Below are positions 9,193 to 11,511 of a stretch of 64,000 nt of DNA, piece after piece. A program made the translations under genes and the position numbers. The notes beneath the pieces are model-generated. The model was not told the DNA's origin and searched no databases. It was given only the letters and a program-made list of their open reading frames with translations. Origin of the DNA: an uncultured Pelagibacteraceae bacterium (GTDB lineage Bacteria; Pseudomonadota; Alphaproteobacteria; Pelagibacterales; Pelagibacteraceae); NCBI GenBank assembly GCA_902531175.1, contig CACADE010000002.1:62001-126000 (forward strand), read 5' to 3'. Numbering within the stretch: the stretch's first letter is position 1; each line of letters opens with the position of its first letter.

Positions 9193-9213
9193 AAAAACTT
9201 CTTGTTTTTTTTT
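9191..9213 (+). terminator. Weak AT-rich hairpin with T-run after dnaE
   Basis: An A-run ending in C (to 9198), a 5-base loop TTCTT (9199-9203), then G and a run of nine T (9204-9213). The stem is about 8 bp with one G-C pair. The shape is that of a Rho-independent terminator, but stability would be low. It overlaps the dnaE stop and precedes the rpsB leader, where a transcription boundary is expected. Confidence 0.4.
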
Positions 9214-9218
9214 AAATT

Positions 9219-9242
9219 GTTAGTATTTTCCAGAAAATTAAC
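9219..9242 (+). ncRNA. Hairpin upstream of the rpsB leader
   Basis: GTTA, a GT bulge, then ATTTT pairs with AAAATTAAC across the loop CCAG (9230-9233). This gives a 9-bp stem with a 2-base bulge. It sits 27 bases before the GC-rich rpsB leader element and may be its 5' domain, or a chance AT-rich fold. Confidence 0.3.
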
Positions 9243-9266
9243 ACGCACACAATTAATGGTTTTATA

Positions 9267-9310
9267 CCTCCGGTCCCTATGGGGCAGATATTGTGGTGGC
9301 ACAACCGGGA
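9267..9310 (+). ncRNA. rpsB 5' leader element: three-way-junction RNA
   Basis: A GC-rich island in a very AT-rich genome, directly before rpsB. Outer stem: CCGGT (9270-9274) with ACCGG (9304-9308). Inner hairpin 1: CCC (9275-9277), loop TAT, GGG (9281-9283). Inner hairpin 2: TTGTG (9291-9295), loop GTGG, CACAA (9300-9304). A9304 can belong to either the outer stem or hairpin 2. The 3' strand ends 8 bases before the rpsB ATG (9317), so folding could cover the ribosome site. A cis-regulatory RNA before ribosomal protein S2 genes has been reported from comparative work on Candidatus Pelagibacter ubique; I take this as that element. Autoregulation by S2 is inference. Confidence 0.75.
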
Positions 9311-9316
9311 AAAAAT

Positions 9317-10096
9317 ATGAAGATACCTAAACTTACTATAGAGCAATTATTAGAAGCTGGCGTACACCTAGGCCATAAAACACTTAGATGGAACCCAAAA
9401 ATGAAAAAATATATTTTTGGTAAAAGAGATTCTATACATATAATTGACTTAACTCAGACTTTAGAATTAACAAATGTAGCTCTTGAAAAAGTTTATTCTA
9501 CTATTTCATCAGGCGGTAAAATTTTATTCATTTCTACAAAAAAACAAGCTTCTGAAGCAATTGCAAATTTAGCAAAAGAAACTGATCAATATTTTGTTAA
9601 TTATAGATGGTTGGGCGGCATGTTAACTAACTGGGGCACTATCTCAAACTCAATTAAAAAATTAAATAAAATTAAATCAGATTTAACTTCAGAAAATAGG
9701 GGATTTACCAAAAAAGAATTATTAAAAATGAGCAGTCAAAGAGACAAGTTGCAAAGATCTTTAGGTGGAATTATGGAAATGAAAAAAATACCAGATTTAG
9801 TTTTTATAATTGATACAAACTATGAGTCATTAGCAATTAAAGAATCTATTAAATTAGGAATTCCTATAATAGCAATCCTAGACACGAATTCTGATCCTGA
9901 GGGAATAAATTTTCCAATTCCAGGAAATGATGATGCTAGAAGATCTATAGATTTGTATTGCAATCTTATGAAAGAAACTATTACTGATGCAAAAAAAAAT
10001 TTTAATCAAATTCAAAGTGACAATAATAAAAATGATAATAAGATTGATGATAAAAATCATGTAGTCCAAAAAAAAATAGATAAAAATTTAAATTAA
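9317..10096 (+). CDS. rpsB: 30S ribosomal protein S2
   Basis: Small-subunit ribosomal protein. Starts MKIPKLTIEQLLEAGVHLGHK, the usual S2 opening with the LLEAGVHxGH signature; YRWLGGMLTNW and PDLVFIIDTN are further S2 hallmarks. The frame is open upstream to 9293, but those codons lie inside the structured leader and do not resemble S2, so I chose the ATG at 9317 (259 residues). The C-terminal tail is rich in Asn, Lys and Asp. It heads a long plus-strand run (tsf, frr, uppS and on) and is probably controlled by the leader RNA. Confidence 0.96.
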   Translation: MKIPKLTIEQLLEAGVHLGHKTLRWNPKMKKYIFGKRDSIHIIDLTQTLELTNVALEKVYSTISSGGKILFISTKKQASEAIANLAKETDQYFVNYRWLGGMLTNWGTISNSIKKLNKIKSDLTSENRGFTKKELLKMSSQRDKLQRSLGGIMEMKKIPDLVFIIDTNYESLAIKESIKLGIPIIAILDTNSDPEGINFPIPGNDDARRSIDLYCNLMKETITDAKKNFNQIQSDNNKNDNKIDDKNHVVQKKIDKNLN

Positions 10097-10108
10097 TCAA
10101 AAATATTA

Positions 10109-10960
10109 ATGAGTGATATTAATAAGGTAAAAAAATTAAGACAATCTACTGGCGCAGGTTTTAAAGATTGTAATTCAGCATTGAAAGAAGCAAATGGGGA
10201 TTTAGAAAAGGCTGCAGAAATCCTAAGGGTTAAAGGTATAGCAAAAGCGTCGAAAAAAATGTCAAGAGATGCAAAAGAAGGAGTAATAGTAATAAGTGGA
10301 GATATTAATAAGACATCTTTAATAGAGATTAATTGTGAAACAGATTTTGTAGCAAAAAATGAGGATTTTATAGAATTCACAAAAGAATTAAGTGAATTAA
10401 ATTATTCATGCTCATCTAATTTGGAAAATTTAAATAAAGCTAAGATGTCAAATGCTAAATCTGTAGAGGAAAATTTATTAGCTTTAATAGCTAAAATAGG
10501 TGAAAAAATAACTATCGGAAAAATAAAAACTATCGAAAATTCAAATGCTCATAATTTTATTTATCAACATTCAGTTATTAAAGATAATGTTTCTAAATTA
10601 GGTGTTATAGTTTCATTAGAAGCTCAAGAAAAAAATGATAAGTTTAATTTATTTGGCAAACAATTATCCATGCATATTGCAGCATCAAATCCATTAGCTT
10701 TAAATACAGAAAATATTAATAGTGAGATAATTGATAAAGAAAACGAGCTAATCTCAGAGGAATTAAAAAATTCTGGAAAACCTGATAATATTGTTAAAAA
10801 AATTGCAATTGGAAAGATTAATAAATTTAAAGAAGATAATAGTCTTTTAACACAAGATTGGGTCATGGAACCCAAGAAAAAAGTTAAAGATATTTTGAGT
10901 GAATTAAATATTCAAGGTTTGCAAATAAAGGAATTTGTAAGAATTAAAATTGGTGAATAA
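10109..10960 (+). CDS. tsf: Elongation factor Ts
   Basis: Nucleotide exchange factor for EF-Tu. The N-terminal UBA-like domain holds [22 protein letters not shown], followed by the core with [12 protein letters not shown]. 283 residues. It lies 12 bases after rpsB, the usual pairing, and its stop overlaps the frr ATG by one base. In most alphaproteobacteria pyrH (UMP kinase) sits between tsf and frr; here there is no room for it. Confidence 0.96.
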
Positions 10961-11511
10961 TGTTTGATCAAAATTCATACAAAAATAAAATGGTAAAAAC
11001 ACTAGATGTTTTTGCAAATGAATTAAATTCTTTAAGAACAGGTAGAGCAAACGCTAGCATGTTAGACATAGTAAGAGTTGACGTATATGGTCAAAAAATG
11101 CCAATAAACCAACTAGCAACAATTACAACTCCAGAGCCAAGAACTATAAATATTCAAGTTTGGGACCTGAATAATGTTCCTTTAATTGATTCTTCGATAA
11201 AAAAATCTGAATTAGGATTAAATCCACAAATAGATGGGCAATTAATTAGATTACCTGTGCCAGATTTAAGTGAAGAGCGAAGAATTGAAATGAAAAAAAT
11301 AGTAAGATCAATGGGAGAAAAGTGCAAAATTTCTATAAGAAATATTAGGCGCGAAGGAAATGATGAATTAAAAAAATTATTAAAAACAAAACAAATATCA
11401 GAAGATGATGAATTGAAATTTGAAAAGATTATTCAAGAATATACTGATAGTAATATAAAATTAATAGATGATAAAGTATCAGTAAAAGAAAAAGATATAA
11501 TGACAATATGA
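10960..11511 (+). CDS. frr: Ribosome recycling factor
   Basis: Splits post-termination ribosomes together with EF-G. 183 residues, the usual RRF length. Typical features: LNSLRTGRANASMLD near the N terminus, PEPRTINIQVWD, and the long helical C-terminal region KKIVRSMGEKCKISIRNIRR. It overlaps tsf by one base and uppS by four, so it lies inside the translation/lipid operon. Confidence 0.96.
   Translation: MFDQNSYKNKMVKTLDVFANELNSLRTGRANASMLDIVRVDVYGQKMPINQLATITTPEPRTINIQVWDLNNVPLIDSSIKKSELGLNPQIDGQLIRLPVPDLSEERRIEMKKIVRSMGEKCKISIRNIRREGNDELKKLLKTKQISEDDELKFEKIIQEYTDSNIKLIDDKVSVKEKDIMTI

Follow-up and report, generated by a model that had tools for sequence, protein, structure and literature searches.

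The closest described relatives of the element considered here are the rpsB motif (RF01815) and the operator of the rpsB-tsf operon in E. coli. The rpsB motif was described in 2009 by Meyer et al. in the dnaE-rpsB gap of 'Ca. Pelagibacter ubique', where very short P2 and P3 helices are reported (PMC2704228). According to a review and to PMC2704228, the E. coli rpsB leader region responds to S2 in trans with the assistance of S1, and control by S2 may be lost when a conserved bulge is removed. In these sources, the E. coli leader is the one for which S2 binding and repression of rpsB are reported. The review places the E. coli start site outside the S2 operator, and tsf is reported to be controlled in E. 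coli through coupling. The E. coli leader scores 83.5 bits against RF00127 (t44). Its counterpart of P1 pairs CAC-A-CGUAUC with GAUACGUGGAG, and its pseudoknot pairs GGGGU with ACCCC, where GCAUAACCCC follows P1 and pairs with GGGGU.

Identity of the rpsB leader

The locus analysed here lies in a stretch of 64,000 nucleotides from an uncultured Pelagibacteraceae bacterium, which is referred to in its full length as the window. A sensitive Rfam scan of the window matches RF01815 at 9244-9326 with 34.1 bits (E=1.8e-5), and RF00127 is absent from the matches up to E=10. The leader 5' of rpsB is the known rpsB motif, and an earlier note on this DNA was right that the class had already been described in Pelagibacter (PMC2704228). 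The element is placed directly 5' of rpsB, a long P1 closes a junction with P2 and P3, and a pseudoknot joins J2-3 to the 3' extension of P1 in 50 of 50 leaders. A structural difference from the published motif was looked for and none was found; the dnaE-rpsB site, the P1/P2/P3 plan, the 5-bp pseudoknot and the very short P2 and P3 are all shared.

The match in the window stays below the 40-bit gathering cut-off of RF01815, a rule for database annotation rather than part of the motif's structure. For SAR11 this cut-off is set too high, and falling short of it does not argue against membership, as it is passed by 0 of 61 SAR11 relatives and misses seven further loci too. One of the Pelagibacter genomes, L134, is presumably HTCC1062, the organism of the motif's discovery, an assignment that draws on the published position of the gap. 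The motif in L134 itself scores 33.3 bits against RF01815, and so a score below the threshold, as in the window, is what the clade normally shows. The rpsB leader of L134, at 873203-873286, falls in the published gap at 873155-873283 (PMC2704228). The Rfam cut-off thus misses the tested SAR11 members even though the motif was discovered in SAR11, and the cut-off or the seed of the family may need revision. With a model built from Pelagibacter leaders, the source genome yields one strong copy of the motif and, beyond this, weak matches only (E=1.6 and 9.6).

Fold and conservation of the leader

The element occupies 9244-9308 on the + strand, which also carries the probable promoter, rpsB and tsf. 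The span first drawn, 9267-9310, started about 23 nt too far downstream and left out the 5' half of P1 as well as P2. P1 is the predicted closing helix, in which CGC(A)CACAAU (9244-9253), with A9247 bulged, pairs with AUUGUGGUG (9290-9298), the 3' strand that begins the conserved GUGGNGG core. Between the two strands lie the P2 hairpin GGU-UUUAU-ACC (9258-9268), the CCGGU of J2-3 (9270-9274) and P3, a short CC/GG hairpin (9275-9284). ACCGG (9304-9308) stands 3' of P1, and the ATG (9317) follows G9308 after a spacer of 8 nt (9309-9316). The earlier note had correctly seen that CCGGT and ACCGG can pair and that the stems end 8 bases before the start codon. Its view that this helix encloses a nested junction as an outer stem has to be replaced, as CCGGU and ACCGG are read from the alignment as the pseudoknot of the motif, between J2-3 and the 3' extension, and P1 closes the structure instead. 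The element coincides with a local GC peak (0.46, against about 0.2 around it) in an AT-rich genome, and the 64 kb window holds a single instance of CCGGT-N20-40-ACCGG, where 0.01 are expected from shuffles.

The genes 3' of the leader are, in order, rpsB, tsf and frr. The controlled gene, rpsB (9317-10096; TIGR01011, 311 bits), encodes 30S ribosomal protein S2, and the second gene of the operon, tsf (10109-10960; TIGR00116), encodes EF-Ts and has a stop codon that overlaps the start of frr (10960). On the other side of the leader, TTGTTT (9202-9207) and TATTTT (9224-9229), separated by a 16-nt spacer, form a probable promoter (9202-9229). Of 75 Pelagibacter leaders, 69 have a site of the TTGN3-N16-18-TAN4 type 5' of P1, compared with a mean of 16 in shuffles. 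Since this promoter-like pair is kept in relatives and lies just upstream, the transcript probably starts near 9236, in which case the motif would fill the 5'-UTR.

Conservation of the fold is evident from 50 distinct Pelagibacter leaders, in which 98.9% of the cells in P1, P2, P3 and the pseudoknot are paired, whereas slid versions of these helices reach 27-52% (at most 51.8%). Double-change cells number 31 in this set of helices versus 9.1 in shuffles, with 0 of 500 shuffles as high, and the compensatory changes fall on three pairs of P1 and on one of the pseudoknot. The inner six pairs of P1 form in all 50 leaders, as do all five pairs of the pseudoknot, which in two leaders (L080 and L084) carries a double change from G-C to U-A, giving CCTGT/ACAGG. 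P2 is paired in 98.7% of cells and the outer two pairs of P3 in 98%. P3 corresponds to the first hairpin of the earlier note, for which CCC (9275-9277) does pair with GGG (9281-9283) in the window, but the inner pairs are variable and form in 28% and 40% of relatives. More distant SAR11 genera have different P1 and P2 sequences in which, as judged by eye, pairing is kept, for example CGAAGAAA/UUUCUUCG in P1 and GGGU/ACCC, GGGC/GCCC, GAGC/GCUC or GGC/GCC in P2. For the sister family f2, automatic alignment to the SAR11 model blurs P1, and its stems were therefore read by eye and kept outside the statistics.

By folding energy the leader does not stand out from shuffles (z-scores of 0.42 and, for the nested three-way junction, 0.30), and hence this measure proves nothing by itself. 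In energy-based folding of the window sequence, P1 has a probability of about 0.45 and the fold of the earlier note is of similar energy.

Probable control by S2 and alternative readings

A leader whose fold, conservation, position and homology are observed in this way most probably serves as an operator of the pseudoknot type in the 5'-UTR, through which surplus ribosomal protein S2 represses rpsB-tsf. The E. coli counterpart responds to S2, and by analogy the SAR11 leader is very likely under S2 control as well. The likeness between the two leaders extends to the bulged A of P1, which lies between CNC/GNG and the inner helix, to the GUGGAGGCAUAACC core, which is the E. coli counterpart of GUGGNGG, and to the five-pair pseudoknot (GGGGU/ACCCC in E. 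coli, CCGGU/ACCGG in SAR11). The E. coli operator differs in having a much longer P2/P3 region, and in placing 24 nt and a separate Shine-Dalgarno (SD) sequence between the pseudoknot and the AUG where SAR11 has 6-10 nt.

In the proposed mechanism, the leader of about 80 nt would fold into P1 with its bulged A, and P2 and P3 would form the cap. The CCGGU of J2-3 would pair with ACCGG just 3' of P1, so that in the closed form a GC helix would end 8 nt short of the rpsB start codon. S2, probably with S1, when in excess of free 30S subunits would bind and stabilise the pseudoknot fold, and the stabilised fold would block loading of the 30S subunit or initiation, so that expression of rpsB falls. 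Expression of tsf may fall with it through coupling, by analogy with E. coli, and control could conceivably reach frr.

How the closed form might block initiation is suggested by its spacing from the start codon. The pseudoknot arm ends 6-10 nt before the AUG in SAR11, and of 80 Pelagibacter leaders 73 have 8 nt. In 18 other alphaproteobacterial leaders the distance is 9-23 nt and mostly lies between 13 and 19 nt. The description of the element as a structured leader of the translation-control type, with a CCGG helix at the ribosome site, holds. Sequestration of an SD sequence is a weakened candidate, because SAR11 genes in the window hardly use such sites: an SD-like four-mer precedes 5 of the 55 predicted window genes of at least 120 aa, versus 3 in shuffles. 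SD-led initiation looks rare in the source genome, and occlusion by position is the form of the idea that remains. It is tentatively proposed that the SAR11 operator has become so compact that its pseudoknot arm covers the place where the ribosome lands, usually without a separate SD, and that S2 binding there would block initiation by direct occlusion, unlike in E. coli. Direct occlusion is more plausible in SAR11 than in E. coli because the spacing is 6-10 nt rather than 24 nt; it cannot be transferred from E. coli, as the start site there is outside the operator. The compact SAR11 form would offer a small and clean test system for autoregulation by S2, the mechanism of which is reported to be unclear in E. 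coli.

It is improbable that the conserved structure serves mRNA stability or standby loading without any control by S2. In its favour, SD sites are missing from most SAR11 genes, so that structure in the leader could aid loading, and S2 control in Alphaproteobacteria is unproven in the sources consulted. This explanation is set against the near-exclusive association of the motif with rpsB and the plan that SAR11 shares with an E. coli leader that responds to S2.

Two further readings turn on the second hairpin of the earlier note, in which TTGTG (9291-9295) can indeed pair with CACAA (9300-9304). Quite improbably, the lineage could possess a two-state switch of its own in which P1 forms when S2 is bound and hairpin 2 when the RNA is free, with the CCGG helix present in both states. 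Both P1 and hairpin 2 draw on the strand 9291-9295 and have near-equal probabilities in the window sequence, but the full four pairs of hairpin 2 form in 18 of 50 Pelagibacter leaders and are missing in the other 32, so it is not a general mechanism. Hardly any credence can be given to a nested three-way-junction switch, in which CCGGU/ACCGG as outer stem encloses hairpin 1 and competes for A9304 with hairpin 2 (UUGUG-GUGG-CACAA): this junction can form in the window (together with P2, at -14.4 kcal/mol versus -15.5 kcal/mol for the best predicted fold), but it excludes P1, which forms in 50 of 50 leaders with compensatory changes, its pairing overall (82.3% of cells) barely exceeds that of shuffles (81.9%), and hairpin 2 shows no double change and has its 9294-9301 pair broken in 26 of 50 leaders. 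The nested junction with hairpin 2 was rejected on covariation. What endures of the three-way-junction claim is that the leader is structured and that its helices can be drawn; across the Pelagibacter leaders, compensatory changes are seen in one pair of CCGGU/ACCGG and in none of hairpin 2. A9304 is common to the outer stem and hairpin 2 as had been stated, but a switch at this base is without comparative support because hairpin 2 competes with P1 and is not conserved.

Operon neighbours and distribution

The region 10109-11511, which includes the tsf-frr junction at 10960, lacks pyrH (UMP kinase), and the gene is likewise missing from the operon in the genome that is probably HTCC1062 (L200). 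The sister family f2 has pyrH between tsf and frr (G037, L201), and three f2 genomes score above 300 bits against TIGR02075. Seven Pelagibacteraceae genomes and the source genome give weak matches only to TIGR02075, in longer frames (369-415 aa) that are probably other genes of the amino-acid-kinase family.

The leader is a widely conserved control element of the S2 type. A search of 197 Pelagibacterales genomes with the model built from Pelagibacter leaders (R1) matches 160, and rpsB is detected in 164 of the 197. Two genomes that possess rpsB and are unmatched by R1 (G050 and G111) have an element that is visible by eye. Of 144 genomes from across the Alphaproteobacteria, 93 have an RF01815 match at E<=0.001.
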